Part shown: in pieces, positions 1 through 35,033 of the stretch
How the letters are laid out: each line of letters opens with the position of its first letter
Numbering within the stretch: the stretch's first letter is position 1
The notes under the pieces: generated by a model
Told to the model about the DNA's origin: nothing
What the model saw: the letters and a program-made list of their open reading frames with translations, nothing else
Databases searched by the model: none
Source of the DNA: Ralstonia pickettii
GTDB taxonomy: Bacteria; Pseudomonadota; Gammaproteobacteria; Burkholderiales; Burkholderiaceae
Reading direction: 5' to 3'
Assembly (NCBI RefSeq): GCF_000607165.1
Contig: NZ_JFZG01000035.1
Location: 1 to 35,033 of the forward strand
DNA: 35,033 nucleotides
Position numbers and translations under genes: made by a program

Positions 1-68
1 TGTCCGCGTAGCGAAGATAATTAGAAAATAGCGAAGTAGATTAGAAAATATCGAAGTTTGGATTGGGT
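1..68 (+). repeat. Left terminal end with three tandem TnsB-type repeats
   Basis: After the 8-base tip come three repeats at exact 20-bp spacing: 9-28, 29-48 and a degenerate copy at 49-68. Copies 1 and 2 share TAGCGAAG and ATTAGAAAA and differ at only a few central bases. Copy 3 keeps TATCGAAG only. The tight tandem array resembles the dense overlapping TnsB sites of the Tn7 right end. Confidence 0.9.
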
Positions 69-146
69 GCTACCCAGCGAGAAGCCGCACTACAGAGCCA
101 TTCCCCTCACTTTTTCGGCTCTACGAAATGATGCGCCGCACCATTT

Positions 147-161
147 GATGCGCAGCGCATC
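147..161. promoter_or_regulatory. Perfect dyad GATGCGC-A-GCGCATC near the left end
   Basis: Seven-base arms around a single central base. A further GATGCGC lies upstream at 130-136. It could be an operator for a transposon-encoded regulator or an end-associated protein site. No function is established. Confidence 0.4.
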
Positions 162-300
162 CGCCCATCACGTCGTCCGACCACAACGTTCGCGGCTGCG
201 AACCAAGTCCAGTACTTCGCCGGATAGCCTCAGCCTACCTGGTGTTGTATGGTTCAAGAACGTGGTTACACGAGCCGCATCACACCTTTCATACCTCCAT

Positions 301-436
301 GGCTGCCAAAGACACCTGCCGTCACCAATCGACCCCAGCGGTCGATGTCGGCAGCCGCGCGTTCGCTCCGTCAGAGCGAACTCACTCGCGAATAGCTGAC
401 TGACCTCGGGCTTCTTCGGCTCCCGGCGTTGCCGGG
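301..436 (+). ncRNA. Hairpin-rich non-coding segment upstream of the AAA+ gene
   Basis: Four inverted repeats fall within 136 bases. An outer 7-bp stem (301-307 with 350-356) encloses a perfect 7-bp hairpin (328-334/340-346, loop CCAGC). An 8-bp hairpin follows (361-368/374-381, loop CGTCA), then a 6-bp hairpin CCCGGC-GTT-GCCGGG (422-436). A smaller hairpin lies upstream at 188-203. No convincing ORF with a ribosome site covers this stretch. It may be the structured 5' leader of the ATPase operon or an independent small RNA. This is inferred from pairing alone, and no known RNA family was recognised. Confidence 0.4.
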
Positions 437-484
437 TTCGATGGCTGCGGCTGCAAGCCATTGATTCGCGTATGGAGAATCATC

Positions 485-1705
485 ATGTCTGCTCCCCGGC
501 AACCTTCGGAGCACCCACCTGGATTTGTTCCTTTAGGGGATCTGTCCGAGCAGCGTAGTGCGGCGGCATGGCATCTGCTCATCCCCTCGAACACGCACAC
601 CGTCCTTGAGGCTGCCCGACAAGCCAAACTGGACCTTGCGGTGATAAAAGAAGATGAGCATGAATCCTCATCTGCTGGACCGGCTGTGGCGACGCCGGCA
701 GAAGTGGTTCCCGCTCCTCGCCGTGCTCGGCCCCGGCATATTCAGGTTTTTGGGCCTGAAGCGCTGGCGCTCGCCAACGAGCACATGCAAGGTGCAGACC
801 GCAGCCAGCGGCGGTGCGCCGAGACATTGTTGGAGCGAGCCGGGAGCAATGAGGGCTACCGCGCACTACCTCGTGTTCGATCTGCCCTGAAGAAGCTCGA
901 AACGGCGCGGAGCGTGTTCGGCAACCTGAGTGAGCCGATTGAGAAGCTCAGGATTGATCTCACGTTGAACAGTGCGATGCGGACAAAGGATTTCCGGATT
1001 CGGCCGATCCTGCTGACAGGACCACCAGGCATTGGAAAAACGCACTTTGCGCTGAAGTTGGCAGAGCTTCTGAATGTGCCAATGCGGAAGTGGTCCGCTG
1101 GAAGTGCCCAGGCAAGCTTCCAACTGACGGGCGGCGATAGCGCCTGGCACAGCGCTCGACCTGGGATGGTTATTGAGATGCTCGCCCGTGGCAGCTCGGC
1201 GACGCCTGTGCTCATCTTGGACGAAGTGGACAAGATTGGTAGCGATGTCCGCTACCCGGTAACTCCTGTACTGCTGGATCTACTTGAGTCCGAGACAGCA
1301 AGCACATTCCAAGACATGTTCTTGCATATGGCGTTTGACGCCAGTCGGATCATCTACGTCCTGACGGCCAATGATCTCAACGCTGTGCCTTCCCCGCTAT
1401 TGAGCCGCGTAGAGGTGTTTGACATCCCGGCACCTGAGCCCGAGCAGCGGTTGCTGCTTGTTTTGGCGGAGGTGCAGCGGCTGCAGCGTGCCACCGGCAA
1501 GCGCATTGAGTTGGACGCCAGCGCGGCAGAAGCCTTGGCAGGACGGAGCGACCTAGATCTGCGCGCAACACATCGTTTGGTCCAGGATGCTTTTGCGACT
1601 GCGATGGCATCAGGAAAGCACGTCGCCGCGCCCAAGATGCCGCGGCGCGCCGGGCGGCAGGCGATCGGCTTCGTGGCAGACCGACAATCTGGTGAGCGGG
1701 CCTAG
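485..1705 (+). CDS. AAA+ ATPase, Lon-like ATPase domain without protease
   Basis: A 406-aa protein from the ATG at 485, chosen over the in-frame TTG at 461 because a GGAG ribosome site lies 7 bases upstream. Walker A is GPPGIGKT, Walker B is LILDEVDK, and a sensor-1-like YVLTAND precedes an SRV arginine-finger-like segment. This is the layout of the ATPase part of Lon/ClpX-type AAA+ proteins. No Lon Ser-Lys protease domain follows, and the ~170-residue N-terminal region is not recognised. It probably remodels a protein or nucleic-acid complex. It leads a unit with a 75-aa protein and a metallophosphoesterase. Whether it serves transposition, defence or neither cannot be decided from sequence. 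Confidence 0.8.
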   Translation: MSAPRQPSEHPPGFVPLGDLSEQRSAAAWHLLIPSNTHTVLEAARQAKLDLAVIKEDEHESSSAGPAVATPAEVVPAPRRARPRHIQVFGPEALALANEHMQGADRSQRRCAETLLERAGSNEGYRALPRVRSALKKLETARSVFGNLSEPIEKLRIDLTLNSAMRTKDFRIRPILLTGPPGIGKTHFALKLAELLNVPMRKWSAGSAQASFQLTGGDSAWHSARPGMVIEMLARGSSATPVLILDEVDKIGSDVRYPVTPVLLDLLESETASTFQDMFLHMAFDASRIIYVLTANDLNAVPSPLLSRVEVFDIPAPEPEQRLLLVLAEVQRLQRATGKRIELDASAAEALAGRSDLDLRATHRLVQDAFATAMASGKHVAAPKMPRRAGRQAIGFVADRQSGERA

Positions 1706-1820
1706 GGGCAATGAATCACCATGCCCGCGACCTACGCTATTGCAATCGCCCTGTGGAGAGACGCGCTGCCGCGAAGGCGTGGACGGAGTAATCTGGGGGG
1801 CAGGACAAATGGAGCAAGCC

Positions 1821-2048
1821 ATGCCGGCAGACAAATTCGGCCGATTCATGACCAGCGATACATTTTTGACGCGCGCGGACGCGGCAGTTGCCGCGGCAGT
1901 ACGCCGCCTCGAAAAGCAAGGCATCGTACCGGCTTACATCCGACGCCAACCAGAGCCGCAGGCAAAATCTGAAGCGGCCCCAAGCGACATCCCTCCTGAT
2001 GTGAGCCAGGACGTCACGAGTAAGCATGAATCTCCTGGTTCTAAGTGA
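1821..2048 (+). CDS. Small hypothetical protein (75 aa)
   Basis: Start ATG at 1821 has a GGAG six bases upstream. An in-frame ATG at 1809 is the alternative. The N-terminal half looks helical (alanine-rich, TRADAAVAAAVRRLEKQ) and the C-terminal half is a polar, proline-rich tail that is probably disordered. The last 23 bases overlap the start of the metallophosphoesterase, which indicates translational coupling. I do not recognise the family. It may be an adaptor between the ATPase and the phosphoesterase, but this is inferred from position only. Confidence 0.6.
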   Translation: MPADKFGRFMTSDTFLTRADAAVAAAVRRLEKQGIVPAYIRRQPEPQAKSEAAPSDIPPDVSQDVTSKHESPGSK

Positions 2049-2802
2049 CCTGCACCTCGAATTCACTACCCTCGACATCGACACGACGGGCGCTGATGTC
2101 ATCGTGCTTGCTGGTGACATTCATATAGGCAAGCGAGGAATGCCTTGGATTGAAGCCCAGAGTCGTGGCCTGCCGGTCATCTATGTGCCTGGCAACCACG
2201 AGTTCTACAAAGGCGAGCACAGCAGAGTGCTGCGAGATCTGCGGGCGGCATGCGCGGCAACGTCGAACGTTCATCTCCTCGACATGGATAGATTCGTGAT
2301 CGGGGACGTAGAGTTCCTAGGTGCCACGCTCTGGACAGACTTCGCTTTGTACGGGGGTACAGAAGAAAACGTGCGTACCGCCGAAGGCTACGCTGGTCGA
2401 GGCATGTCCGACTTCACCGGGGCCATTCGTTTTGAATCGCACGGGGTGTTCAGAAAGTTGCAACCGCGGGATACGACACGGATGCACCACGTCGCGCGCG
2501 ACTGGCTCCGCACGGAACTAATGTCCCCTTCACAGCACAGGCGGGTGGTCGTTACCCATCACGCCCCTTCGGCCAAGAGTGTCTCGTCGCGCTATCAAGA
2601 TGATCCGCTGACGTCTGCATATGCCAGCCGCATGGATGATGTGGTCCAACTGGCCGATCTATGGATTCATGGCCATATGCACGACAGCTTCGACTACAGC
2701 GTCGGCGCATGTCGCGTTATATGCAATCCACGGGGATATGCACCGAAAGGACACCCAGCGGAAAATCAGGCCTTCAGTACTGGATTAGTGCTTGAGATAT
2801 AG
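2026..2802 (+). CDS. Calcineurin-like metallophosphoesterase
   Basis: A 258-aa protein with the full set of metallophosphoesterase metal-ligand motifs in order: LSDLHLE near the N-terminus (D-x-H), LAGDIH (GD), PGNHEFY (GNHE), VVTHHAPS and WIHGHMHD (GH-x-H). Members of this superfamily hydrolyse phosphomonoesters or diesters, including nucleotides and nucleic-acid ends, using two metal ions. Substrate cannot be assigned here. There is no signal peptide, so it is cytoplasmic. It is the last gene of the AAA+/small-protein/phosphoesterase unit, overlapping the upstream frame by 23 bases. Pairing of an AAA+ ATPase with a predicted phosphoesterase fits a nucleic-acid processing or defence module, which is inference. 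Confidence 0.85.
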   Translation: MNLLVLSDLHLEFTTLDIDTTGADVIVLAGDIHIGKRGMPWIEAQSRGLPVIYVPGNHEFYKGEHSRVLRDLRAACAATSNVHLLDMDRFVIGDVEFLGATLWTDFALYGGTEENVRTAEGYAGRGMSDFTGAIRFESHGVFRKLQPRDTTRMHHVARDWLRTELMSPSQHRRVVVTHHAPSAKSVSSRYQDDPLTSAYASRMDDVVQLADLWIHGHMHDSFDYSVGACRVICNPRGYAPKGHPAENQAFSTGLVLEI

Positions 2803-2973
2803 CCCCGTAACCCATCGTTGGGGAATCACACCGATTGGTAGGCACTCTTGCGGCGCCGCACATTACCTCGGGCGATGAGGCTACACGCGTGAAAGTCGCA
2901 TGCTGAGACACGGCACTAGCGTTGCTTTTCCCATGCTTGACTTCCGCGCGCACCTCTGGCCAAATAGCGCCCC

Positions 2974-4185
2974 ATGACCAGTAACGTGCGCCGAACTCCG
3001 TCCAATCTCATTGAAGGGGCATTCCATGCCCCTTCAGGCGCAGTCATATGGCTTGAATCTAGGAAACAACAGCTTGCCGCAGATATTGTTTCAGCCCACG
3101 CCGCCTGCACCAACGCTCTGACGTTCGGCAACAAGGACTTTGTCCGAGGATTGCATGTTGCTGCCCGCGGGCTTGGGGAGCGAATTGGATACAGTGGCAA
3201 GCTTGCGGCATTGTTCGAGCGCCACCGTCACTGGTTCAAAAACGGCCAGAACATCGATGTTCATGCAATAAAGCCCGCGCTCCGACTGGTGCAAACGACA
3301 GAGGAAGAGCAGCTGTGGACGTTGGCTCGTGCGTGCTGGTCCATGCCGTACTCGAAAGGATACGGCCGCAGGTTACGCTTCCTTGTAGTGGACGAAACCC
3401 ATGGCGGCCTGATTGGTATCCTGGGACTGCAATCCCCTCCGGCAGACCTTGCCTGCCGAGACACACTATTCGAGTTTCCCGCTGGTCGGAAACTCGAGCT
3501 GGTCAACCAAACGATGGACGCCTACACCATCGGCGCGATCCCGCCTTATAGCTTCCTGCTAGGAGGCAAGCTTTGCGCGGGACTACTCGCAGCGGACGCA
3601 ATCCGGGAGGCGTACTGGCTAAGATACGCGGCGAAGCGCACGACAATGCAACGCCAACAAATCCAGCAGCCGCTCGTAGCGATTACAACGACCAGCGCGT
3701 TTGGCAAGAGCGCGCAGTACAACCGCCTGCGATACGATAGCCGTCTGCTGGCGGAGCCGATTGGTTACACGAAGGGATTCGGGATGCTCCATTTGGAGCA
3801 TCTCTACGATCGCATGTGCGATTTGCTGGTAGCCCATGGACAGCTGACACCCAACGGATATGGAAACGGCCCCAAGGTTCGCTGGCAAAACGTTACCAAA
3901 GCGCTGATGTTGCTTGGGTTACCGCTGGACCTACTTGCACATGGCGTGCAACGTGAAGTCTATCTATTCAACCTAGTCAGCGACCTCCACTCTGGCATGG
4001 CAGGCGGTTCTTTCGGAGCCCCCCAAAGACTATCTGTGGATGAGTACTCGGATTACTGGAAGCAACGATGGGCAGTACCTCGATCCCACCGCTACCCAGA
4101 TTGGCGCGAAGTCGATGCACAAAATCTAGTGCGCGAGAAGGTCCAAGAATGGGACCTTCTCACAGCGCAAAAAAAACAGCGCTAA
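2974..4185 (+). CDS. DUF4338 / DruA-like protein
   Basis: A 403-aa protein of about the length of the Druantia type I protein DruA. The central DUF4338-type core is visible: RRLRFLVVDE, GLIGILGLQSPPADLACRD, then IGAIPPYSFLLGGKLCAGLLA and, further on, IGYTKGFGML. DruA is required for type I Druantia anti-phage activity, but its biochemical role is uncertain. None of the other Druantia genes, notably the very large DruE helicase, is present, so this is a solitary homologue. A strong hairpin lies at codons 13-21 and another in the last ~17 codons. The stop overlaps the convergent gene's stop by 4 bases. The start ATG at 2974 lacks a clear ribosome site. Confidence 0.75.
   Translation: MTSNVRRTPSNLIEGAFHAPSGAVIWLESRKQQLAADIVSAHAACTNALTFGNKDFVRGLHVAARGLGERIGYSGKLAALFERHRHWFKNGQNIDVHAIKPALRLVQTTEEEQLWTLARACWSMPYSKGYGRRLRFLVVDETHGGLIGILGLQSPPADLACRDTLFEFPAGRKLELVNQTMDAYTIGAIPPYSFLLGGKLCAGLLAADAIREAYWLRYAAKRTTMQRQQIQQPLVAITTTSAFGKSAQYNRLRYDSRLLAEPIGYTKGFGMLHLEHLYDRMCDLLVAHGQLTPNGYGNGPKVRWQNVTKALMLLGLPLDLLAHGVQREVYLFNLVSDLHSGMAGGSFGAPQRLSVDEYSDYWKQRWAVPRSHRYPDWREVDAQNLVREKVQEWDLLTAQKKQR
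3012..3036. repeat. Perfect 11-bp inverted repeat inside the 5' end of the DUF4338 gene
   Basis: Arms TGAAGGGGCAT (3012-3022) and ATGCCCCTTCA (3026-3036) are separated by TCC. With no T-run after it, it is not a classic terminator. It may be a translational hairpin or a structural end, as discussed in the findings. Confidence 0.6.
4135..4161. repeat. Perfect 10-bp inverted repeat at the 3' end of the DUF4338 gene
   Basis: GAGAAGGTCC (4135-4144) and GGACCTTCTC (4152-4161) flank a 7-base loop. A CAGCGC-A8-CAGCGC direct repeat follows. The hairpin is within the last coding segment, just before two convergent stops. It could end transcription from either side, although the poly-T that rightward termination needs is absent. 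Confidence 0.5.
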
Positions 4186-5399
4186 CAACTTGGACGTCTT
4201 TCACGTGACGTCTCAATTTTCGTTTCCAATTCCAGCTCGCCGATCTGTTGAAGTCGGCCAAGAACCCCTGCCAAGTCTTCGAAGTGCAATCGCCACAGCG
4301 TCCCAACGCCACTGGAGTACTTGCCAGCGTTGAACTGCTTTGGGCGCGCCCGCAGAACTGTGACCTCGTTACGCACCTGCAGCGCAAGTGCGACGCCAAC
4401 CGCCTGCAGTTTCGATCCCATGTGAATGAGCCAGACGTTCGATCCCGCGCTTTGATCAATCTGGCTGACCAGAGTGCCCAATGTCTGGCGATAGTCTCGC
4501 GTACTGCAAGTATGGTGGTTGCGCTCACATAGTGACGGAGCGGTCGTATCAGAAGGCTCCTTACCTACCATTACTGCCAGCTGACGATTTACGATTCGAC
4601 GCTGCAGATCCAATCGCCACCTCATGGAAGACGCGGGTGGCTCACCAAGGATCCAGAAGATGGATGACACTGGCGACACAAGTGGCTGATCGCTGATGTG
4701 AGCAAGGCAGCGCACCAACCGAGATGTGCGTAACGAGGGCAGCGCGATAACTCGATCAGGGCGATTCTCTGCGTTCAAACCAGGATACAGCTCGTTGACG
4801 TCCACATCGGAGACACCTTGCTCGGCAAACGAGCTGTCGTCACCATCCGACAAGGCTTCTTGGACCAACTCCTCGAGCCTCGATTCATATTCGAAGCGCG
4901 GAGGAGCATATTCCTCTGGCTCTGCGTAGACGATGTCGAGTACGAGTCGCGGTGCCTGTGGAATGAGCGTTGCAAGAACGGACAGGATCAACGTACTTGA
5001 TGCGCCGCTAATATCGAAAGCGACGCGAACTTTCTGTCGGCTTTGCCGAAGCTCCTGCAGCGCAGCTTGCACGGCGCATTGCACCTCATGCGGACTTTCG
5101 GCGCTGAAGGTGCGAATTTCGGAACAAAAACGCGACAGAGCCCCGCGGATGGCATCCCCATTACCCTCGTTGTCCTGAGTATTGATGTCGTAGCAACCTA
5201 GCAAGGCAATAGCCGCCCCACCCTGAGGTAAGCGCTCAGCGAACAATTGGGGGATAGCGGAAGCTCGATCCTCAAAACCAAGGGCACTAATTAGCAGATC
5301 GGGAGAAACCTCATCTCCATCCCACGGTTCAACTTCGGGAAGAGACACCTGTACATCGTCAAAGCAAATTCGTTTGACGAAAGCCTGCTTGTCAGTCAT
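4182..5399 (-). CDS. Unrecognised Rossmann-like protein paired with the kinase-ATPase
   Basis: A 405-aa protein from the ATG at 5399, which overlaps the upstream kinase-ATPase stop as ATGACTGA. The longer reading frame back to 5477 is rejected because of this coupling. Visible features are LLISALGFEDRAS near the N-terminus, a strand-turn AIALLGCYDINTQD, and VRVAFDISGASSTLILSVLA followed by LVLDIVYAEPEEYAP. Alternating hydrophobic strands and helices suggest a Rossmann-type nucleotide or ligand-binding fold. A second alpha/beta segment, SNVWLIHMGSKLQAVGVAL, follows. No nuclease, membrane or toxin motif is recognised. As the second gene of a tight pair it is likely the sensor or effector partner of the kinase-ATPase, which is inference. 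Confidence 0.65.
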   Translation of the reverse strand: MTDKQAFVKRICFDDVQVSLPEVEPWDGDEVSPDLLISALGFEDRASAIPQLFAERLPQGGAAIALLGCYDINTQDNEGNGDAIRGALSRFCSEIRTFSAESPHEVQCAVQAALQELRQSRQKVRVAFDISGASSTLILSVLATLIPQAPRLVLDIVYAEPEEYAPPRFEYESRLEELVQEALSDGDDSSFAEQGVSDVDVNELYPGLNAENRPDRVIALPSLRTSRLVRCLAHISDQPLVSPVSSIFWILGEPPASSMRWRLDLQRRIVNRQLAVMVGKEPSDTTAPSLCERNHHTCSTRDYRQTLGTLVSQIDQSAGSNVWLIHMGSKLQAVGVALALQVRNEVTVLRARPKQFNAGKYSSGVGTLWRLHFEDLAGVLGRLQQIGELELETKIETSRERRPSC

Positions 5400-8100
5400 C
5401 TGTATCCTCGAACAATTCCCCACTGAACCGATCCGCGCCGCTCTTGGTGGCATACGACATCCTTGCTCGATCCGCAAAACGCTCCGGAGCCGTCAGGAAT
5501 GTTTGCAGCTCCTCAATGTCGCGCACCCCTAGATAACTATCACGCTTGAGCGAAAGTCCGAATGCTGGATTGAATATTCGCCGCAACTCCCAACGCATAG
5601 TTTGCTTTGAAAGCCCCTCCTTGGCGCGACTGTCTTGTAGCTCAATAAAGATCGCTCGCCGGAGAAGCTCGCGCGCGAGAGATCCTAGCTCTGGGTCAAG
5701 ATCACGTAACAAGGCAATCGTCGATCTCGGTTCATCCTTGGTCATCTCCAGACGGTAAAGTCGATACGGCTCCTTCGCAGAGTTCAGTCGCCCCTTAACC
5801 ATCACGTCACGGACGGCCGCTCCGTACTGTCCAAGAATCTTGGCCATTAGCGCTCCGAATGGATGCAAACCATCCACGCGCTCCTTGAACGCCTTTGAGA
5901 TAGAAACGATCGCCTCGTGTTGAGCAGCCTTGGTAATGGGTGCCGTGGTATCGCGCTGCACGCTTCCCTTGACGAACATCTCACGAACGATCTGTAAAAC
6001 CGTGGCGGTATCGCCACTCCATAGCCGCCCAAGAGCGTGCAACCCATGATAGTAGTAGCGACGCCCCTGAGTACTGCCATGCTCGCGAATATAGCTGGCA
6101 AGCTGAACATCATCAGCATATGGTTCCGAAGATCCAATAAGCTTCTCTGCCCGCCCCGCCCAACCAGCTCTGCTCAGCCGTCGATCAATCAGGTTCGTCA
6201 CAAACCGTTTCGCAGCATGATCATCGACGTCCGCCAAAGCTCGGCTACCTGCGTCGATAGTGGTGAACTCGCGCGTCTCCTCTAGTGTGACCCCATCGAT
6301 ATCGCCCGGATCAAAACCGAACTTCTCGCAGGAAATCTTGAAGTAGTGAGTTGGAACGCGCTCAAAAATTATCTTATTAAGTATTCGTTGAATTTCTTCC
6401 TGCACTCGGTTTGACGAGTAGTCATCCAACAGGAATACCACTTGATGCCTCTTGAAGTAAGGGAAGACAGATCCCAACTTTCCAGTTAGATCAGCAAGGA
6501 ACGTATCCGGAAGATGATCGTTCCATTCGCCATCTCGAAGCAAAGTTCCATGGAGCTGAACCCGTAAGGCATCAAGGTCATCTGCGAAATGAAGGATGCG
6601 ACTGCGATTGGTCAGTCTTGCCGATTCAACGGGACGACTGAAGTACGACGAGATAAGTGCAACGATATTATCGAAACCAGCTTCATCTAGTCGAAAAGCG
6701 CGGTTCGCCACTGAATCGGCATAGGCCATACCAAGAGATTTTAGAAGCTCACGAGCAACTATCAATTGGAAGTAAGTTGCAATCTCATGCGCCCTCTGCT
6801 CAGCGCGCCCCTCCTTGCGAGCCAACCAGCTAAGGTTGTTTTGAAGATGTGCAGCGCAACTGATATATACCCCAAAAGAGTCAAAAGGGCTTGCACGTCC
6901 GCGTTCCGCATTCTGAGCACGTAAGCCCAAATGTGTTCTTACTGCAAGATAGCGGAATATCATTGACTTACCGCACCCGCGTGGACCAGTGAGCACGATA
7001 GGTTTACGCTCCTGGATGTCCTGCATCCACGGCAATGTTTCAACGAAAAGCTCCAGCAGCGTCGCGTCGTCGGCTAAATGCTCGGCCGAAATGGCCTCAA
7101 ACGGCTGGAACTTTGACTCATCAATCTCCACCTCTTCGAGTTCACGCTGAAGAACTTGCAACTCCTGGGCAATTTGGTTCTCAATCGGAAAATGCCTCGC
7201 CTGGTCCTCATCCACCAACTTTTCGATGAACTGCAGGAACCGGCGCATGAAGTGAGGGTGACTGGAGGCGACACGACGGTTCCGATGTAGACCGTTGTAA
7301 AGCTCCACCAATATCTGAACAAAACAGATTTTGTCGTCTCGGCTCTTGCTTGTAGTCTGATTGGATGGTTTTAGACTACCCAAATCGATAATTGATACTT
7401 CCAATCGATGCTCGTCATCAGCGAGCAGAGCCAATTCCGCTGGCACCTGAGAAATCATGACGTTGCCCACGTGCAGATCGTCATGTTTCAACTCAACCCG
7501 CTTGAGGTAGGTGATAGCTCGAAGCACCTGCATTGCTACACTGCAGACAAAATCGATCTCGAGCGAGTCCTCTTGGAGATACTGCTCCAAGGTCCTCCCC
7601 GTAACCCAGGGGGCTATAAAGCAAACAAAGTCTTCTTCGGCATCCGGCATACCCGGCGGCGGCGCAGAAAGGCCGACTGACATCGGGCAAACAAAGAGCG
7701 ATTTAGCTGGACGAAGTTTGGATGTATACAGCAGCTCTTGCTCGAGCCGTGGCTGCTTGTAGTCGCCGGGGACTGCAAGCTTGGCAGCAAACTCCTCATG
7801 GGTCGCCGGGTCGCGAACCCTCAAGACGAACCCCTTCCACCCGCGGCGTTTGTGCAAACCGTGCACACGCCCCTCCGCATCTCGATCCAGAACTTCATAG
7901 GTATGCGTTGACTGGCCATCGAGTGCTCGTACCGTCAACGTGGCAGGAATAATGGGAGCGCCATCTATCCAGTTGCGCTGTGCCTCACTAAGTGCGTCCA
8001 TTGTTTTGTTGCCTATGATCTGCGCTACGTCGACCATCGCCGAAGTTGCAATCGCCATCCCCACTACCGTACGGCCGGCACACGTAGGCCTGACCTGCAC
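5392..8100 (-). CDS. Protein-kinase-like domain fused to a P-loop ATPase (902 aa)
   Basis: The N-terminal ~300 residues carry a protein-kinase-like fold: AAKLAV with candidate Lys107, a catalytic-loop variant KHDDLHVGNV (~205-214) and IDLGS (~238-242) in place of DFG. A second module has Walker A GPRGCGKS (~372-379) and Walker B VVFLLDDY (~554-561), resembling ORC/STAND-type ATPases, followed by ~300 mostly helical residues. No membrane segment is seen. The GTG start at 8100 has GAGGGG six bases upstream. The stop overlaps the next gene's start. Kinase and STAND-like ATPase fusions occur in prokaryotic conflict systems, so an anti-phage role is plausible but unproven. GC looks lower than in the metal island. 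Confidence 0.8.
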   Translation of the reverse strand: MQVRPTCAGRTVVGMAIATSAMVDVAQIIGNKTMDALSEAQRNWIDGAPIIPATLTVRALDGQSTHTYEVLDRDAEGRVHGLHKRRGWKGFVLRVRDPATHEEFAAKLAVPGDYKQPRLEQELLYTSKLRPAKSLFVCPMSVGLSAPPPGMPDAEEDFVCFIAPWVTGRTLEQYLQEDSLEIDFVCSVAMQVLRAITYLKRVELKHDDLHVGNVMISQVPAELALLADDEHRLEVSIIDLGSLKPSNQTTSKSRDDKICFVQILVELYNGLHRNRRVASSHPHFMRRFLQFIEKLVDEDQARHFPIENQIAQELQVLQRELEEVEIDESKFQPFEAISAEHLADDATLLELFVETLPWMQDIQERKPIVLTGPRGCGKSMIFRYLAVRTHLGLRAQNAERGRASPFDSFGVYISCAAHLQNNLSWLARKEGRAEQRAHEIATYFQLIVARELLKSLGMAYADSVANRAFRLDEAGFDNIVALISSYFSRPVESARLTNRSRILHFADDLDALRVQLHGTLLRDGEWNDHLPDTFLADLTGKLGSVFPYFKRHQVVFLLDDYSSNRVQEEIQRILNKIIFERVPTHYFKISCEKFGFDPGDIDGVTLEETREFTTIDAGSRALADVDDHAAKRFVTNLIDRRLSRAGWAGRAEKLIGSSEPYADDVQLASYIREHGSTQGRRYYYHGLHALGRLWSGDTATVLQIVREMFVKGSVQRDTTAPITKAAQHEAIVSISKAFKERVDGLHPFGALMAKILGQYGAAVRDVMVKGRLNSAKEPYRLYRLEMTKDEPRSTIALLRDLDPELGSLARELLRRAIFIELQDSRAKEGLSKQTMRWELRRIFNPAFGLSLKRDSYLGVRDIEELQTFLTAPERFADRARMSYATKSGADRFSGELFEDTDD

Positions 8101-8443: not shown

Positions 8444-8797
8444 ATGAATACGTTGTTCGCAAAAACCTTTGGTGGCCTCTCTCGTGCTTACTACTTCCGC
8501 CATTTCCTGTTTGGCGTGATTTTTCCCGCGTTCATATTCCTCTTCGCGAGCAACGCCGGAAAACCGCTCCCCTACCAGATGGTTCTGTTCGCCCTCATCA
8601 GCACCGTGCTCTATCCATATGCCCGGTTCGTGTACGAAGGCGTGATGAACTTCATTCTCGGCAACAACGTCTTCTTCGTGAACGCAATCGTGATGCTGTT
8701 CGCCAAGTTCAGCACGATGCTGATCTGTTGGGCTTTCGCGATCTTCATTGCGCCGATCGGACTGGTGTATCTGTACCTCCGTCATAGCCGGGCGTAA
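8444..8797 (+). CDS. Small integral membrane protein, unknown function
   Basis: A 117-aa protein with about three hydrophobic helices: HFLFGVIFPAFIFLFAS, YQMVLFALISTVLYPYA and a long C-terminal stretch through MLICWAFAIFIAPIGLVYLYL. It ends in a short basic tail RHSRA. No family is recognised. It stands alone 90 bases before the TnsE-like gene, on the same strand. The start ATG at 8444 has no strong ribosome site. A role as a membrane effector or immunity protein for the neighbouring defence genes is possible but not supported by a motif. Confidence 0.6.
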   Translation: MNTLFAKTFGGLSRAYYFRHFLFGVIFPAFIFLFASNAGKPLPYQMVLFALISTVLYPYARFVYEGVMNFILGNNVFFVNAIVMLFAKFSTMLICWAFAIFIAPIGLVYLYLRHSRA

Positions 8798-15065: not shown

Positions 15066-15362
15066 AAAGCGCTCCACAAAGCACACATCCGTGGATTCTT
15101 GCTTTCCCCACCCTGACTTGTCGACCCTCCATCGCGAGGGGGCTCAATGCACTGAGCGCGTTTCAGTCTAGGTCGCTGAGAGCAACTTATGTAGTGCACA
15201 CACGGGGCCCTCCTGACTATCGATCGGGGGTGTAACGCACCGCGTTACCGATGGCGTTGCGGGCCGGCGGCAAGAAATCCCGCTCGCGTCACGCAGTCGG
15301 ACGTTTTCGCCGTCATATATGCAGAGGGCTACGTCCTTTGGTTCGGTGCAAATGTTGCTCCC
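15066..15362. other. Divergent control region between tnsA and the Ni/Co regulator
   Basis: No gene is seen. The tnsA leader, read leftward, contains a CCCTC-GCGATG-GAGGG hairpin at 15127-15142. A perfect dyad lies at 15232-15248. The tns promoter should lie here, but no convincing hexamer pair was found. Confidence 0.45.
15232..15248. promoter_or_regulatory. Dyad GTAACGC-ACC-GCGTTAC upstream of tnsA
   Basis: Perfect 7-base arms around 3 bases, 167 bases upstream of the tnsA start. This is a candidate operator controlling the transposition operon. No dedicated regulator gene is identifiable next to it. Confidence 0.4.
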
Positions 15363-15698: not shown

Positions 15699-15705
15699 GC
15701 CAGCC

Positions 15706-20966: not shown

Positions 20967-21043
20967 AGGTAATGTCCTGCGCAGTTTTTCTTGACGACGT
21001 CATGAGCGGAGCATCAGTCACCATACCACCAGCTGAAATCCCC

Positions 21044-29281: not shown

Positions 29282-29312
29282 GGCAAGATGTATGTAGGCT
29301 GTTGGCCTAGCC

Positions 29313-30956
29313 TCATCCCGTCACCAGCCCAGCGATCCGCACCAGCACCAGTCCAGCGGCCACCACGAGATAAGCCCGCAGCACAAACATCCACGTGCGC
29401 TTGAGCGGTGTCCAACGTGCTGGCGTGAGCTGCTCCAGCGGCGGCATGGTCCAGTGGTCGCGATCGAGCACGCTCACGCGCAGTGGATGCTGGGGTCGAT
29501 GACTGCGCCGCTCGATGTGCCACAACACCAGCGACATGACAATGGCGATGAGCGAACCGCCGATCAGGATCGCGCCGATCTCGAATTCGCCGATGCCGGG
29601 AAACAGCACCGCCGCCGTCAGGATGACGGAGAGCATCACCAGCACCGCCACCACACCGCCGGTGAAGATGTTCATCGCGCGGCCGTTCGTCCAGGGGCCC
29701 AGCACAGCCTTGTCATTGCACAACAGCAGCAGGAACACCGTCGCGCTCGGCAGCAGCACGCCGGCCAGTGATTGCACCGCGTTGGTCAACAGCCCGAGCG
29801 GCACACCCGGCGTCAGCACCAACCCTGCGGCCAGCAGCGTCAGCCCGAAGTAAATCGCATAGAAACCCTTGGCCTCCGTCGGCTTGCGATGCAGCGAATG
29901 CCGTACAGCGAACACATCGCCGATAGCATAGGCCGTGGACAGCGACACCGCGCATGCGCCGATGATGCTGGCGTCCAACAGCGCGATCGCAAACAGCACA
30001 CCGGCCCAGCGGCCCGAGTGCGCTTCCAACCCTTTCGCCGTGCCCAGTGCATCGGTGTAGTTGCCAAACTCTGGCGTACCGTGGAAGGCCTGCGCGCTGA
30101 AGGCGATCATCGCCACGGCACCGGCAATCACGAGCACGATGCCCAGCCACAGGTCCGCTCGCTCATAGCGGATGAAGCGCGCGGTGATCCGCTTGTCGAT
30201 CACGTAGCTCTGCTGGAAGAACAACTGCCACGGCGCCACCGTCGTCCCCACGATGGCGATGATCAGCAGCATTACCTCCGCCAGCGGTGCACCGGCCGGT
30301 AGAGCAGGCACGAAGAAGTCGCGCGCCACCTGCCCCATCGGCGGGTGCACCATCACAAAGATGGGAATAAGCGTGAGGCTGCCCGCCACCAGCAGCAGCG
30401 CAAAGCGCTCGAAGCGGCGGAAGTCGCCCGTGGAGGCGGCCAGCATCACCAGCGCGGCCGCTGCACACACGCCCCAATGACGCGGGATGCCGAGATACTC
30501 CAGCGCCAGGCTGATGCCGATGAATTCCGTCACCAAGGTCAGCGCGTTCACCAGAAACAGGTCGATGACGGAGAAGCTGCCCCAGAACTTGCCGAAGCGC
30601 GCAAAGATCAGCCGCGCATGGCCGACGCGCGTGACGGCGCCCAGGCGCAGCACCATCTCCTGGTTCACGTACAGCACAGGGATCAGCAGCAGCAACGTCC
30701 AGAGCAGCGTGGTGCCGTAGTTCTGCCCGGCCTGCGTGTAGGTGCCGAAGGCGCCGGCATCGTTGTCGCCGACCATCACGATCAGGCCGGGCCCGAGGAT
30801 GGCGAGCAATGTACGCAAGCGCGCACGCCAGCTATCACGCGCGCCGGTGTCATGGTGGGCGATGGTGCCGAGCGCCCCACGGATGTCGCCCACATGGGCG
30901 TCGTCGAGAGCGGCATGACGTGGTGGTGTGTCGATGCCCGAAGTCAGTTGGGTCAT
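29313..30956 (-). CDS. NRAMP-related divalent cation transporter with altered metal site
   Basis: A 547-aa membrane protein from the ATG at 30956, with GGAGG five bases upstream. The frame extends to 31262 without support. The NRAMP (SLC11) fold is recognisable: GPGLIVMVGDNDAGAFGTY in helix 1 and GTTVAPWQLFFQQS in helix 6. However, the canonical DPGN of helix 1 is GDNDAG, and the MPH of helix 6 is APW. These motifs hold the transition-metal ligands of MntH, so Mn/Fe selectivity is doubtful. It resembles the NRAMP-related magnesium transporter group, which is inference. At 547 aa it is longer than MntH (~412), with an extra ~70-residue C-terminal segment. It lies downstream of a leader ORF and a porin gene on the same strand. 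Confidence 0.82.
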   Translation of the reverse strand: MTQLTSGIDTPPRHAALDDAHVGDIRGALGTIAHHDTGARDSWRARLRTLLAILGPGLIVMVGDNDAGAFGTYTQAGQNYGTTLLWTLLLLIPVLYVNQEMVLRLGAVTRVGHARLIFARFGKFWGSFSVIDLFLVNALTLVTEFIGISLALEYLGIPRHWGVCAAAALVMLAASTGDFRRFERFALLLVAGSLTLIPIFVMVHPPMGQVARDFFVPALPAGAPLAEVMLLIIAIVGTTVAPWQLFFQQSYVIDKRITARFIRYERADLWLGIVLVIAGAVAMIAFSAQAFHGTPEFGNYTDALGTAKGLEAHSGRWAGVLFAIALLDASIIGACAVSLSTAYAIGDVFAVRHSLHRKPTEAKGFYAIYFGLTLLAAGLVLTPGVPLGLLTNAVQSLAGVLLPSATVFLLLLCNDKAVLGPWTNGRAMNIFTGGVVAVLVMLSVILTAAVLFPGIGEFEIGAILIGGSLIAIVMSLVLWHIERRSHRPQHPLRVSVLDRDHWTMPPLEQLTPARWTPLKRTWMFVLRAYLVVAAGLVLVRIAGLVTG

Positions 30957-30999
30957 AGCGACCTCCGATTTGTTATTGGGTGATTGGATGACCCACCGG

Positions 31000-31206
31000 T
31001 TACCAATAGGTGCGCGACAGCCGGACGGCAGCGGCAGCGTAGCCGTGGTTGGAGAGCGGCTGCCCACCGTCGTCAGCACGCCGGTTGGAGGTGGCGGGCA
31101 CGGCGTTGGCACGCTCGGGCGCACCGGCCCGGGCCTGCACGAACGGCGAGCTGAACGGCAGCGCGATTGCCGAGAAACGACGGGCGGGGATGTTGAATTT
31201 GCGCAT
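31000..31206 (-). CDS. 68-aa leader-type ORF upstream of the NRAMP-like gene
   Basis: The ATG at 31206 has an excellent GAGGAG ribosome site five bases upstream. The product begins MRKFNIPARRFSAIALPFSS, is basic and rich in Ala/Arg, and ends in RTYW. It resembles no known protein. It ends 43 bases before the transporter start. Its last two sense codons (TAT TGG, 31003-31008) can pair with CCAATA (30974-30979) just upstream of the transporter's ribosome site. That arrangement fits a translated regulatory leader, though a genuine small envelope peptide is also possible. Confidence 0.6.
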   Translation of the reverse strand: MRKFNIPARRFSAIALPFSSPFVQARAGAPERANAVPATSNRRADDGGQPLSNHGYAAAAVRLSRTYW

Positions 31207-31217
31207 AGGTACTCCTC

Positions 31218-31285
31218 GCCACATGCGCACGACGGGTGCATGGCATGCGGCAATCGCCGCACAGGGGTCGTCTTACCCTGGCGGC
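31218..31285 (-). promoter_or_regulatory. Leader with three mutually exclusive hairpins next to a ribosome site
   Basis: Read leftward, helix A pairs GCCGC-CAGGG with CCCTG-T-GCGGC (31256-31285). Helix B pairs GCGGC with GCCGC around a 4-base loop (31247-31260). Helix C pairs GCCGCATG with CATGTGGC, including one G-U (31218-31251). B shares a strand with each of A and C, so B excludes both. Helix C ends directly against the GAGGAG ribosome site (31212-31217) of the leader ORF. A further hairpin CTTGCC/GGCAAG lies upstream at 31324-31340. No known riboswitch family was recognised. Confidence 0.55.
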
Positions 31286-31442: not shown

Positions 31443-32891
31443 TTAGAACTCCGCGTGGGCACGAATGCCAAAGAACTTGGCAGGCCCGCGGTCCCGGTTG
31501 TAACCGGGGTTCTGGATCAACTGAAAATCGGGGCTGAGCGTGATGCCCTTGACCGGTTGAAAGCTGTAGAACACTTCGAGTATGCGCTCGTGGCCATAGT
31601 TCAGTGCGCCGTCACCCAGGAAGGCGCCGCTGCCGCCCGCCGCCAGATAGGCACGATGATCCGGGCCCAGCATGTTGAGCGAAAAGGCCGCCCCCAACAC
31701 ATCATTCGGCCGCCCCCAGGACGTGCCCTTGAGCAGACCGCCGAACGACACGTTGCGGCCCACCTCGGTAAAAGCATAGGTCTCGGTCTTGTCATCCGAC
31801 CAGTTCAGGCGGGTGAACAGGCCCAGGTTTTCGCCCACTTTCTGCTCGAACGACAGGCCGACGCCCACCTTGGCGTGCTCGCGCCGCACCTGGCTCAGGT
31901 CTGGCGCGGCACCGGTGGCCTGCCCGAGCGCAATCGCATCATCAAAGCGGCCCATGCGCGCGAAGTTGCGCCAGCCCAGCAAGCGCACCTTGCCCTCCTG
32001 GCCGAACAGCGTGTAGCGCTTTTCAAGCTCCAGCATGTCGCCGTAGTGCTTCAGAAAACGCGTGTCGAGCGGCAAGCCGTTGGACTCAAGCGGTTGCAGG
32101 AATCGGCCCGCGCGGACGGCCCAGCCCAGCTCGCTGTCGATGTACTCCAGCGCAACGCCCCAGCTGTAGCCGCGCGCATCGGCCGCATAGTCGAACGACG
32201 GGTGCGTCATGAACGACCAGTTCAGGAACTGCGTGCGCGGGTCGTGCGCGTACTCCACGGCATCAAAGACATCGAGCACCGGCAGATTGCCCGCGGTCAG
32301 CACCACGCGACGCTTGTCGACCACGTCAGCGAACTGGTTGAAGTCGGCGTCGACCTTTTCTGTGTCACCGCCCAGGCCCCAGGTCTGACGCATGAAAACG
32401 CGGGCGCGGTACAGCGTCGGGTCAGTGCCCGTGACCTTGGCCAACTCGCCGTTGGTGGGGCCACCCAGGCCATGCAGATCGGAGAACGCCTTGCCCATCA
32501 CCACTTCCGGGTTGAAGTGGAATTCCGCGCCCTTCCACAGCCGCATGCCCAGGTCCAGCGTCGTGCTGAAGGAATAACTCGTGGCGCGGCCCGCCGTCAG
32601 GCTGTTGTCGCCGCTGTACGGCGACTTGAAGGCGGGCTTGGCTTGCCAGACCCACGTCGATTGGCCATGGAAGCCGAAGCGGTCGCCCAACTCACCACCG
32701 GCAGGCAGCGCATCTGCAGCCGGAGCAGAAGCCGGAGCTTCTTGCGCTTGGGCAGCATGCGTGAAAGCAGAGAACAAAGCCATCGCAGCCAGCAAGGCCG
32801 GACGACGGAGGGGACGCAGAGCAGCAGCGCGCACCAGAACGAGCGGACGCACTGCAACCCAAGCGTACTGCAGCATCGAGAAAAACAGCAT
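31443..32891 (-). CDS. OprB-like carbohydrate-selective porin family protein
   Basis: A 482-aa outer-membrane porin from the ATG at 32891, with GGGAGG just upstream. The frame extends to 33050 without support. It has a long basic N-region and a hydrophobic core LLAAMALFSAFTHAAQAQ, with cleavage near AQA|QEA. The mature barrel has family-typical FGFHGQSTWVWQ, NPEVVMGKAF and NDVLGAAFS, and C-terminal strand FFGIRAHAEF ends in Phe, as outer-membrane barrels do. OprB family members admit sugars, but here it precedes the leader ORF and NRAMP-like gene on the same strand with no strong terminator between. Passage of metal or a metal-chelate is therefore a reasonable guess. Confidence 0.8.
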   Translation of the reverse strand: MLFFSMLQYAWVAVRPLVLVRAAALRPLRRPALLAAMALFSAFTHAAQAQEAPASAPAADALPAGGELGDRFGFHGQSTWVWQAKPAFKSPYSGDNSLTAGRATSYSFSTTLDLGMRLWKGAEFHFNPEVVMGKAFSDLHGLGGPTNGELAKVTGTDPTLYRARVFMRQTWGLGGDTEKVDADFNQFADVVDKRRVVLTAGNLPVLDVFDAVEYAHDPRTQFLNWSFMTHPSFDYAADARGYSWGVALEYIDSELGWAVRAGRFLQPLESNGLPLDTRFLKHYGDMLELEKRYTLFGQEGKVRLLGWRNFARMGRFDDAIALGQATGAAPDLSQVRREHAKVGVGLSFEQKVGENLGLFTRLNWSDDKTETYAFTEVGRNVSFGGLLKGTSWGRPNDVLGAAFSLNMLGPDHRAYLAAGGSGAFLGDGALNYGHERILEVFYSFQPVKGITLSPDFQLIQNPGYNRDRGPAKFFGIRAHAEF

Positions 32892-33518
32892 GAGACCTCC
32901 CTCGTCTGCTTCTATGACAGACGTAGGCATGGGCCGACCACGAGCCTCCCAGGAACCACGCACGCAAACGCGTACGCGGCCACATGGCCGTGTCGATAAA
33001 ACGATCGAATGATGGGAGAGGCTTGTGCGGAGAACCCGCTCAAGATCCACTACCCGCCGTGCAATGCGGCTAGGCAGTGGTGAAGCGCAGCGATGCGCCC
33101 AAACTGTCTAGCCGTTCAACGTGCGACCCAAGGTCGACTAGAACAACTGTCCATGGAGATCACTCCGAGTTCTGACGGGGCGAAGGGTAACAAAGTCATA
33201 CGTAAGCCTGCAAGCAGTTTTTCCGTTGGCTTTGAGCAACGCGTCGCAGCCGTCAAACAACGTGGAATGCCGACCATGGAACGGGAGAACGCTGAACGCC
33301 AAGAGGGAAGAGAATCAAGTGGCGAATAGGAGCGCCTACAAAAAAGGGAATGCGGCGGAATTGGGCAAGTGTCTGCGCACCTCAAATTTCGGCGGGCCCT
33401 CTGGACAGACTACATAGGTAGCTGAGCTAAGCCGGACCTGACGGATCGATTCAAGCCGACTATCTCGCACACGGGATCTATCGCAGCGAGTGAGCGACAT
33501 TGAGGCGTCTTTGTACTT
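32892..33518. other. Non-coding region upstream of the porin, with hairpins
   Basis: The porin leader contains CGTCTG/CAGACG (32903-32908/32918-32923) immediately upstream of its ribosome site, and CGGCCA-CA-TGGCCG (32977-32990). No ORF here has a ribosome site with plausible composition, and no transposase remnant was recognised. The region holds the divergent promoters for the porin and the riboswitch transcript. Confidence 0.45.
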
Positions 33519-33547
33519 TTGCGTGCCAGGGGGGATGCTGATACACT
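33519..33547 (+). promoter_or_regulatory. Promoter of the manganese-riboswitch transcript
   Basis: TTGCGT (33519-33524) and TACACT (33542-33547) are separated by 17 bases. Transcription would start near 33554, exactly where the first helix of the riboswitch begins, which supports the assignment. Confidence 0.55.
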
Positions 33548-33553
33548 CCGGCC

Positions 33554-33689
33554 CGTTGTCATTGGGGAGTAGCCATTCCGGGCGCAATGCTCGGAAGTCC
33601 ACGTCAACAAACTTGAGACCTTGCCGTCTCATGGTGTGGACAGCCTCTGCTGCAAGCAGAGCCGCTAGGCGAGACCTTTGGCCGCGACG
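33554..33689 (+). ncRNA. yybP-ykoY family Mn(II) riboswitch
   Basis: The two conserved loops of the family are present: GGGGAGTAGC (33564-33573) and GGCGAGACCTTTG (33668-33680), with the conserved GTCAACA (33602-33608) between them. The closing helix P1 is CGTTGT (33554-33559) with GCGACG (33684-33689), and an internal hairpin CTCTGCT-GCA-AGCAGAG sits at 33644-33660. Known members bind Mn(II) between the two loops and switch on Mn exporters. The P1 3' strand GCGACG could instead pair with CGTCGT at 33714-33719, giving a possible expression platform before the exchanger gene at 33761. Confidence 0.88.
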
Positions 33690-33760
33690 TGCACACCCAG
33701 GCCGGGCGACGCGCGTCGTTGCGCCATTGGTTTATCTCGTTCGCCTGGCTACCTCATTTC

Positions 33761-34771
33761 ATGCTCCTCACAATCGGTCTTTTCCTGATATCGGCAGGCG
33801 CCATCTATTTGGCCTGCGAGTACTTCGTCAACGGCATTGAATGGTGCGGCAAGCGACTGAATCTCGGCGCCACAGCCGTCGGCTCGGTGTTGGCCGCCTT
33901 TGGCACAGCACTGCCTGAAAGTGCCGTCACGTTCGTTGCCGTGGTCTTCGGTTCGACGCCTGAGCAGAAAGATCTCGGCGTCGGTGCTGCGATGGGCGGC
34001 CCGCTTGTTCTGGCCACACTCGCATATGCGGTAGTTGGTTTGGCGTTGATGATGAATCGACGCGAGCTTGGCCGTCCCACCGCGGAAGTCAAAGTCGACC
34101 ATGCACGCATGAGCCGGGACCAGGCCGCTTTCCTGGGCGCCTTTGTTGTCAAGGTTGCCCTGGGGCTTGTTGCCTTTGCATACAAGCCTTGGCTGGGCAT
34201 TCTTTTCCTGGTCGCCTATGCGATCTATGTCTGGCGCGAGATCAAGGACAGTGACACGGCACCTGAAGAAGAGGAACTGGAGCCCCTCTCGATTCGCCCG
34301 AAGTTGGCGGAACCTCCACTGGGGTGGGCCGTGCTGCAAGTGCTGCTCGCGCTGGTCGTGATTGGCGGCGCTTCACACGTCTTTGTGGCACAGCTTGAAG
34401 CGATTGGCACAGCGCTGCACTGGCCAGCACACCTTGTCGCGCTATTGCTCAGCCCCGTTGCGACGGAGTTGCCCGAGACGATGAACGCTCTGATTTGGGT
34501 CCGCCGGGGCAAGGAACGCCTCGCCCTGGCAAACATCTCGGGGGCCATGATGATTCAGGCCACCATCCCGAGTGCACTGGGGATCTTCTACACTCCATGG
34601 CGATTTGACGGGCCGCTGCTTGCGTCCGGCATCATTACTGCGGTCGCCATCTTGTTCTTGTGGATGATGTTCCGGCGCGGAGTCGTGCATGGGCGAACCC
34701 TGGTAGCAGTCAGCTCTTTGTACGCGCTTTTTGCGTTTGTTCTCGCGATCGGGTTTCCAGTGACCCGCTAA
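33761..34771 (+). CDS. NCX/CaxA-type cation exchanger, probable Mn/Ca exporter
   Basis: A 336-aa integral membrane protein of the sodium/calcium exchanger superfamily. The two inverted alpha-repeats are GTALPESAVTFVAVVFG and VATELPETMNALIWVRRGK, each with the key Pro-Glu pair. About ten hydrophobic helices are split by a charged loop with a Glu cluster (APEEEELEPLS). The ATG at 33761 is preferred because the longer GTG frame from 33689 would start inside the riboswitch P1 helix. Its own ribosome site is weak. Control by a manganese riboswitch points to Mn(II) efflux, possibly alongside Ca(II). It is the last gene before the right end. Confidence 0.87.
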   Translation: MLLTIGLFLISAGAIYLACEYFVNGIEWCGKRLNLGATAVGSVLAAFGTALPESAVTFVAVVFGSTPEQKDLGVGAAMGGPLVLATLAYAVVGLALMMNRRELGRPTAEVKVDHARMSRDQAAFLGAFVVKVALGLVAFAYKPWLGILFLVAYAIYVWREIKDSDTAPEEEELEPLSIRPKLAEPPLGWAVLQVLLALVVIGGASHVFVAQLEAIGTALHWPAHLVALLLSPVATELPETMNALIWVRRGKERLALANISGAMMIQATIPSALGIFYTPWRFDGPLLASGIITAVAILFLWMMFRRGVVHGRTLVAVSSLYALFAFVLAIGFPVTR

Positions 34772-34940
34772 CAGGACGCCTTGCATGGGTTCATACTGCC
34801 GACACTCAGCCGGGCATCTGAGGCGGTCGGCGATGGACATCCGGTGGCAAGACGACAATGCTTGACTCTCGCACCGCACTGGTTGCATGGCTGGGCAGGC
34901 TGGCGCCCCGGGGACGGGACACTCGCGCGCGCCTCTTTCA
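34772..34940. other. Short non-coding stretch before the right end
   Basis: Neither a gene nor a convincing terminator is seen between the exchanger stop and the first end repeat. Confidence 0.5.
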
Positions 34941-35033
34941 TGCTCCAGCCTACTTCGCTATTTTTTCTAACTTACTTCGCTATTCTCGCCAGTCAGGTCG
35001 GCGCTTTTTCTAATTTTCTTCGCTATGCCGACA
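34941..35033 (-). repeat. Right terminal end with three spaced TnsB-type repeats
   Basis: Reading inward from 35033, after the tip TGTCGGCA come repeats at 35006-35025, 34963-34982 and 34941-34960. All begin TAGCGAAG. The outer two share TTAGAAAA and the innermost is degenerate. A 23-base spacer separates the first and second, and 2 bases separate the second and third. The looser spacing resembles the Tn7 left end. Confidence 0.9.

Follow-up and report, generated by a model that had tools for sequence, protein, structure and literature searches.

We asked whether a 35,033-bp contig of Ralstonia pickettii (C35; hereafter the window, i.e. the whole stretch of DNA that was analysed) is a single mobile element, and if so how it chooses its place in the chromosome. 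The contig belongs to a genome of 5,746,538 bases in 38 contigs (G000). The window is exactly one complete Tn7-like element with TGT/ACA tips. We read it as a recently mobile Tn7-like transposon whose TniQ directs insertion in one orientation at the oxyR-dps locus, which probably has a TnsE-dependent second route and which carries metal and candidate defence cargo; we give this reading as a whole a probability of roughly 86%.

The original prediction had described the window as an intact Tn7-like element with TGTC...GACA tips, and this was borne out: an 8-bp tip is present at each end (TGTCCGCG on the left, TGTCGGCA on the opposite strand on the right; positions of all features are given in Table 1), next to TnsB-like arrays, together with open core genes and 5-bp duplications. 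The repeat TAGCGAAGNNNNTTAGAAAA occurs four times in the window with zero mismatches, twice at either end and nowhere else (0.11 matches expected from shuffling with up to three mismatches allowed), and a scan of the whole genome with up to two mismatches returned the same four places and no others. The first site begins at base 9 from either tip, and at the right end 23 bp follow the first repeat, both as predicted. Of the three contiguous repeats with a 20-bp period that had also been predicted, the period stood but the number did not: there are two full repeats and a partial third one. A partial third repeat is present at each end (TATCGAAG on the left and TAGCGAAG on the right). The cores of the predicted TnsB sites begin 9/29/49 bases from the left tip and 9/52/74 bases from the right tip, an asymmetry of the kind found in Tn7-like elements, and by analogy with work on Tn7 it may set the orientation of insertion.

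This geometry recurs in related elements. The left-end offsets are exact in five of the six left ends compared (the six include the own copy and that of strain H2Cu5, which are mutually identical), and the sixth, G002, has the same positions with base changes. The right-end offsets are exact in four of six; in G002 a single base differs at 52, and of the array in the G010 remnant only the first site is left. By eye, the right ends of more distant elements read 9/52/74 in L020 (TnsB 62% identical) and L023 (61%), and 9/52/73 in L026 (43%). The 23-nucleotide (nt) spacer of the right end is conserved in length and not in sequence. The same repeats were found in elements whose TnsB is identical or 85% identical, which is where the original prediction had proposed to look for them.

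Next, we asked whether the core transposition genes are intact, as had been claimed. The tnsA, tnsB, tnsC and tniQ genes are all open. Pfam matches over the cut-off were obtained for TnsA, TniB/TnsC, TniQ and Mu-transposase C (TnsB), and tnsA-tnsC-tniQ are clustered. TnsB gave PDB sequence matches to the TnsB proteins of Tn6677, Sh and Tn7, as expected of a related DDE transposase, and its residues D248, D333 and E369 align with the D, D and E of Tn6677 TnsB, which we take to be the catalytic residues. The predicted model of TniQ was weak (predicted local distance difference test score, pLDDT, of 62.6); Foldseek and VIA ranked TniQ/TnsD chains first, which is uninformative on specificity. A further open reading frame (ORF) of 560 amino acids (aa) has the fold of the TnsE C-terminal part when predicted structures are compared, and on this modelled fold it is a divergent TnsE. 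At the level of sequence, neither Pfam on 28 members nor PDB sequence searches gave anything useful, and a search of the whole genome for TnsE_C (PF18623) was negative at E 10, a result compatible with the extreme divergence reported for one TnsE branch. The homologue P0087 carries the source name 'TnsE C-terminal domain-containing protein'. By analogy with Tn7, TnsE probably provides a second route, with plasmids in replication or conjugation as targets. A Pfam scan of 26 ORFs showed no resolvase family and, with regard to CRISPR-associated transposons (CASTs), no Cas family; no CRISPR array search was made.

Has the element moved recently? R. pickettii H2Cu5 (G008) carries the same element on its contig C61 (137272-172304); the two copies differ at one of 35,033 positions, namely 33273 of the window. 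In the genome collection used, which has one genome per species, G000 and G008 represent different species. The original prediction had suggested examining the host DNA for a 5-bp target duplication, and one is present: ACGGT flanks the H2Cu5 copy. In the own genome the H2Cu5 flanks match, at 92% identity each, the starts of two contigs, C2 on the dps side and C26 on the oxyR side, and these two starts share GACGG, shifted by one base relative to ACGGT. We infer that C35 sits between C2 and C26, since it is the sole contig with such end sites. It counts against our reading that the own-genome copy is placed from contig ends, with C35 having no overlap to the flanks and its orientation unread. 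The near-identity of the elements, the divergence of their flanks and the one-base shift of the duplication together argue against vertical descent or exchange by flanking homology. The spread of a shared element by homologous recombination of a chromosomal segment, instead of two transpositions, would fit the same locus and near-identical element in two species, but the identity of the flanks does not exceed 88-93% over 500-1000 bp on either side (over 1000 bp, 92.8% on the oxyR side and 91.9% on the dps side; over 3000 bp with gaps, 83.8% and 91.4%, respectively), and the duplications lie one base apart (that of the own genome as read from contig ends), so that we regard this route as very improbable. 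The simplest account is two separate insertions of practically the same molecule, and a single difference over 35 kb in two species is a sign of recent movement.

C35 ends precisely at both transposon tips. This suggests several copies, a subpopulation with an excised element or an empty site, or an assembly quirk. With regard to a second copy, three pairs among the 60 readable contig ends of the own genome share a 5-bp end (14 ends of seven small contigs were masked); apart from the known flank pair C2-C26 this leaves two, close to the ∼1.7 expected by chance.

We then asked how the landing site is used across the genus. It is bounded by the oxyR stop codon on one side and, on the other, by an OxyR-like operator that precedes dps-katG, and the insertions in G000 and G008 are 24-25 nt beyond the oxyR stop. 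The best NCBIfam matches of the flanking genes were OxyR (261.7 bits, below the cut-off of 329) and Dps (76.8, below the cut-off of 114), while the catalase/peroxidase (katG) was over its cut-off. An oxyR match is present in 16 of 16 Ralstonia genomes. On the 3' side of oxyR, four of the 16 have an element with a 5-bp duplication (GACGG in G000, G011 and G002; ACGGT in G008), two have remnants without matching duplications (G005 and G010) and nine have an empty site (G001, G003, G004, G006, G007, G009, G012, G014 and G015). In the remaining genome, G013, a different sequence follows oxyR and a left end lies beside the oxyR promoter instead. Empty sites, which the original prediction had proposed to search for, were compared with joined flanks: the H2Cu5 flanks, joined minus one copy of the duplication, align without a gap at the G007 junction, and the own-genome flanks joined in the same way align with no gap to G009, with one 1-base gap near the junction to G015 and with small gaps to G014. 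Orientation is identical in all five readable oxyR-site insertions (G008, G011, G002 and the remnants in G005 and G010), with the right end toward oxyR; in the H2Cu5 copy the left array faces the operator side of the landing site and the right array the oxyR stop codon. Insertion at this locus is site-specific and orientation-controlled, with six of 16 genomes occupied.

In the G011 element (27,009 bp), tnsA, tnsB, tnsC, tniQ and tnsE are all matched over nearly their full length (TnsB 85% identical), and the G002 element (21,557 bp) looks decayed, as only parts of tnsB, tnsC and tnsE match. A family-wide scan of 398 genomes for the ends gave 10 positive genomes, six Ralstonia and four of another genus (G273, G340, G389 and G409); the single TGGCGAAG-type matches of these four were judged to be chance. 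Three observations concern individual loci. On contig C87 of G013 (L078), two left ends at 10062 and 12073 point the same way at a distance of 2 kb and enclose an AAA/Lon-like gene, which suggests nested or successive insertions. In G005, a 9/52/74 right end is present at C2:276268 (L080 position 11268), on a contig other than that of oxyR. Finally, all 15 loci read (L188-L202) have a conserved 24-codon ORF (consensus MSLPLASNTVATVLEWLAAYGESH) downstream of the OxyR-like box, ∼112-118 nt from where the GCGCACG box starts. Synonymous changes in this ORF are numerous, and its stop codon is TGA in some loci and TAG in others; the pattern used to find it requires an upstream GGAG.

What does the element recognise at this site? 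The oxyR-dps gap contains an inverted repeat, CCGTCA..TGACGG, with the insertion at its first arm, followed by a GCGCACG box. The pattern of this box, GCGCAYGYCTAANYNATAGAT, occurs once per genome in 15 of the 16 Ralstonia genomes, and its core ATAGATAAAAACAAT resembles what we take to be the OxyR consensus. From the oxyR stop to the insertion the distances are 25 (G000), 24 (G008), 24 (G011), 19 (G002), 20 (G005) and 31 nt (G010), and from the insertion to the GCGCACG box they are, in the same order, 21, 23, 22, 24, 20 and 21 nt. The spacing is tighter on the box side (20-24 nt, standard deviation 1.3) than on the side of the oxyR stop (19-31 nt, standard deviation 3.9); for the four duplication-bearing copies alone, a small sample, the values are 1.1 on the operator side and 2.3 on the oxyR side. 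In these four copies the insertion is 21-24 nt from GCGCACG and 36-39 nt from the OxyR-like 15-mer. Section 11 of the review PMC11406308 states that the end with overlapping sites appears nearest the att sequence read by TniQ. Together with the tighter spacing, this places the recognised sequence on the operator side, and it is probably this sequence that the compact left end faces.

The usual layout of Tn7 would suggest another arrangement, in which the 3' coding end of oxyR is what TniQ recognises, in the manner of TnsD at glmS, with the hairpin and operator merely adjacent. Insertion 19-31 nt past the oxyR stop in six of six cases fits it, as does the insertion of distant relatives at the very end of the lipA coding sequence (see below), but the distance is the more variable one on the oxyR side, the compact left end points toward the operator, and the G013 left end lies upstream of oxyR, where there is no oxyR 3' end. 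On balance we find recognition of the oxyR end doubtful.

The G013 left end is instead 39 nt from ATAGATTTTATCTTA, in the oxyR promoter. Measured outward from the left tip, AGATAAAANCNATC lies at 40 (G008), 39 (G011), 41 (G002), 41 (G013), 37 (G005) and 38 nt (G010), i.e. at 37-41 nt in all six Ralstonia left ends with host DNA next to them; in G000 its distance from the boundary on the dps side is 38 nt. The second left end of G013 (C87:12073) was left out of this count, as its flank is element-type DNA 2 kb inside the first left end. The pattern GATAGATWWWAWCWWW is found once each in 13 of the 16 Ralstonia genomes and not in G003, G006 or G014; its sole match in G013 is the oxyR promoter box, whereas the oxyR promoters of the other 15 genomes have one or two mismatches to the 14-mer. 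The box spacing and G013 are suggestive of an operator landmark, namely the OxyR operator as DNA, or OxyR bound there, with the element homing to OxyR boxes. Several points speak against this. The patterns, GATAGATWWWAWCWWW among them, were written after both sites had been viewed, so that their rarity is no independent test; G013 provides a single such left end, on a contig of 13.7 kb in which no right end, duplication or tniQ is visible; the predicted OxyR binding rests on what we presume to be the consensus; and the distant lipA-site elements indicate that the lineage can sit at a coding end. We therefore hold the operator landmark as a tentative possibility. That the lineage as such homes to OxyR operators, the short TniQ reading a site ∼40 nt away either alone or via bound OxyR, seems to us rather unlikely; if true, the operator of a host transcription factor would serve as a landing beacon, and the dps-katG box and the oxyR promoter box would both be usable.

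Could a different protein of the element select the chromosomal target? Candidates would be the AAA/Lon-like ATPase at the left end and the 117-aa protein, which are conserved in G011 (73% and 79%, respectively), and the short TniQ does suggest a partner. However, the stretches read of a Burkholderia record (41.2 kb) and of a Rhodoferax plasmid (14.8 kb) contain the AAA gene but no tns genes, and neither of the two candidate genes was matched in the G002 element or in the complete element of G422 described below. We consider a separate selector of this kind quite improbable.

Distant relatives of the element were found at lipA. A search of 10 genomes with a left-end pattern gave 11 matches in six, three of them in G013. 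Among the other eight, two pairs were the same end matched twice and two matches (L221 and L225) were dropped for lack of a TGT/TGA tip, which left four ends, all at the 3' end of the lipoyl synthase gene (lipA), in the genomes of L020 (Ideonella), L023 (Roseateles), L024 (Aquabacterium) and L043 (Variovorax). These ends lie at position 1490 in L217, L218 and L220; L219 is on the minus strand. The pattern had no match in G005, G049, G426 (L026) or G427 (L035), and in G423 (L022) only a match that was dropped. One of the four belongs to a complete element of 20,687 bp in an Ideonella metagenome-assembled genome (G422, L020), with matches to tnsA, tnsB, tnsC, tniQ and tnsE and with GTGGC as its duplication; the remaining three are left ends that were not linked to a complete element here. 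At the lipA-site end of G428 there is a tnsE match but no tnsB in the 20 kb read, and in G425 there was no tns match in the 13 kb read. In three of the four cases the lipA frame runs 19 nt into the element, so that the tip supplies the last codons and the stop, and in the fourth the lipA stop lies exactly before the tip. Related elements thus use other landing sites while the geometry of the ends is kept.

How might the element work? By homology, TnsB would bind the two asymmetric end arrays and join the ends to target DNA, TnsA would cut the other strand to give cut-and-paste movement, and TnsC would link TnsA and TnsB to the target selector. TniQ, with or without a host factor, would direct insertion in a single orientation into the gap between the oxyR stop and the OxyR-like operator upstream of dps-katG, with the compact left end toward the operator. 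The divergent TnsE would open the second route known from Tn7. The exact ends, the 5-bp duplications, the empty sites, the repeated use of one site and the gene content are observed, and recognition by TniQ, the role of TnsE and present mobility are what we infer. The element itself is of a known kind, and what is new is its landing site, the duplicate insertion apparently one base apart and a testable OxyR-operator landmark. It is a delimited and probably active Tn7-like element, and its near-identical copies in two different species provide a natural replicate. It extends the list of known Tn7-like landing sites by oxyR-dps and, through a related element, by lipA; its right-end geometry with the 23-bp spacer is kept while TnsB diverges to ∼43% identity; and it would be a vehicle that moves metal-resistance and candidate defence genes between Ralstonia species. 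If the operator reading were true, an intergenic regulatory site could be recognised by a short TniQ that has no known partner, with implications for the evolution of target selectors.

We compared the element with known systems. It resembles Tn7 in its TnsA, TnsB, TnsC, TniQ-domain protein and TnsE, in the 5-bp duplication and TGT/ACA tips, in having one compact and one spaced end, and in the fixed orientation at a chromosomal site. Unlike Tn7, which uses glmS, it lies in oxyR-dps intergenic DNA, its TniQ is short (353 aa), its compact end is the left one, tnsA is separated from the right end by 19.9 kb of mostly metal cargo, and tnsE is convergent with tniQ. Like the Tn6022 family (TniQ + TnsF, comM) as described in section 11 of PMC10293859, it has a TniQ that is short and a TnsE that is highly divergent and encoded on the opposite strand, but it sits outside comM, at oxyR-dps, and no TnsF (orf3/tniE) was identified in it, although no TnsF-directed search was made. 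With the res-site hunters Tn5053/Tn402 it has in common TniB/TniQ-type proteins, a single TniQ and, as a conjecture, the use of a protein-bound DNA landmark; it differs in having TnsA, in the lack of a resolvase family among the Pfam-scanned ORFs and in a chromosomal stress-operator region in place of res sites. The G422 element is of the same TnsABC-TniQ lineage with TnsE (TnsB 62%, TniQ 45%, TnsE 40%) and has a 5-bp duplication, the same end geometry and a compact left end toward the target, but that end is at the 3' end of lipA and the tnsA match begins 134 bp from the right tip (19.9 kb in the window). The BGImetal islands of Burkholderia (PMC10702557), also in the Burkholderiaceae, likewise combine tnsA, tnsB, tnsC and tniQ with metal-resistance cargo; in contrast to the oxyR-dps site here, no attachment gene is named in the abstract, section 16 or the passages of that paper available. 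The text available from PMC3384475 describes a different Tn7-like island, without tnsE, in Cupriavidus. The main texts of PMC10293859, PMC8649781, PMC10702557 and PMC3384475 do not contain the word oxyR. A full-text literature search, with most subscription papers outside its scope, did not find oxyR or lipA as a Tn7-like attachment site; among the matches listed, the sole co-occurrence of Tn7-like, oxyR and attachment site concerns E. coli ST302, and Tn7-like, lipA and TniQ occur together only in a biotechnology review.

Finally, we asked what the element carries. As predicted from sequence matches, its cargo consists of metal efflux and candidate defence genes (Table 1). The DruA-like protein had no other Druantia match beside it among the seven proteins scanned with PADLOC. 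The CARF-like and the kinase/ORC-CDC6-like proteins (4182-8100) both match one PADLOC model, CARF_STK_AAA, and the pair could be a split signalling defence system.

Table 1. Features of the 35,033-bp window, in order of position
Feature	Position	Strand	Remarks
Left 8-bp tip, TGTCCGCG	1-8	+	
Left TnsB-like array, compact, 20-bp period	9-56	+	full sites 9-28, 29-48; partial 49-56
AAA+ ATPase with Lon-like ATPase domain, adjoining left end	461-1705	+	also away from tns genes
153-aa ORF	1587-2048	+	relatives in G011 (50%) and G002 (46%) elements; no Pfam match
Calcineurin-like metallophosphoesterase	2026-2802	+	
DruA-like protein (DUF4338)	2974-4185	+	PF14236, E 3.4e-62
Protein resembling PADLOC CARF models	4182-5477	-	start codon uncertain; overlaps next ORF
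Kinase-like and ORC-CDC6-like ATPase protein	5392-8100	-	resembles CARF_STK_AAA candidate defence model
117-aa ORF	8444-8797	+	79% in G011 element; no Pfam match
Divergent TnsE, 560 aa, convergent with tniQ	8887-10569	+	by predicted fold
tniQ, 353 aa, putative landing-site selector	10537-11598	-	PF06527, E 1.6e-26
tnsC/tniB AAA ATPase	11595-12500	-	PF05621, E 5e-63
tnsB transposase, 640 aa	12493-14415	-	Mu-transposase C Pfam match; PDB sequence matches
tnsA endonuclease	14418-15086	-	PF08722, PF08721
FrmR/RcnR-like metal repressor and DmeF-type Co/Ni efflux transporter	15420-17010	+	repressor: Pfam match, below NCBIfam cut-offs
Second cation diffusion facilitator	18439-19362	+	
Sensor kinase	19359-20966	-	
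Response regulator	20972-21649	+	
CusA/CzcA-family resistance-nodulation-division (RND) pump	21679-24843	-	
Adaptor	24856-26076	-	
Outer-membrane channel	26214-27731	+	
NRAMP-family metal transporter	29313-31262	-	
OprB-family porin	31443-33050	-	
Na/Ca exchanger-family protein	33689-34771	+	
Right TnsB-like array, spaced	34953-35025	-	full sites 35006-35025, 34963-34982 (23 bp between); partial 34953-34960
Right 8-bp tip, TGTCGGCA	35026-35033	-	reads 35033 to 35026

With respect to carriage on plasmids, a megablast search of the tns region against 72,556 plasmid records gave no match. Nor did TnsB point to a plasmid vehicle: a tblastn search matched 4,892 plasmid records, all below 60% identity, the best row at 41%. 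The AAA/Lon-like gene is disfavoured as a core transposition gene, being present without tns genes in the stretches read elsewhere. In the Burkholderia record it stands alone (L186 20001-21188), with no tns matches in the stretch, and in the Rhodoferax plasmid (L187 11560-14818) an AAA/Lon-like ATPase is followed by a metallophosphoesterase in an order similar to that at 461-2802 of the window. The region of this ATPase is perhaps a mobile module of its own.

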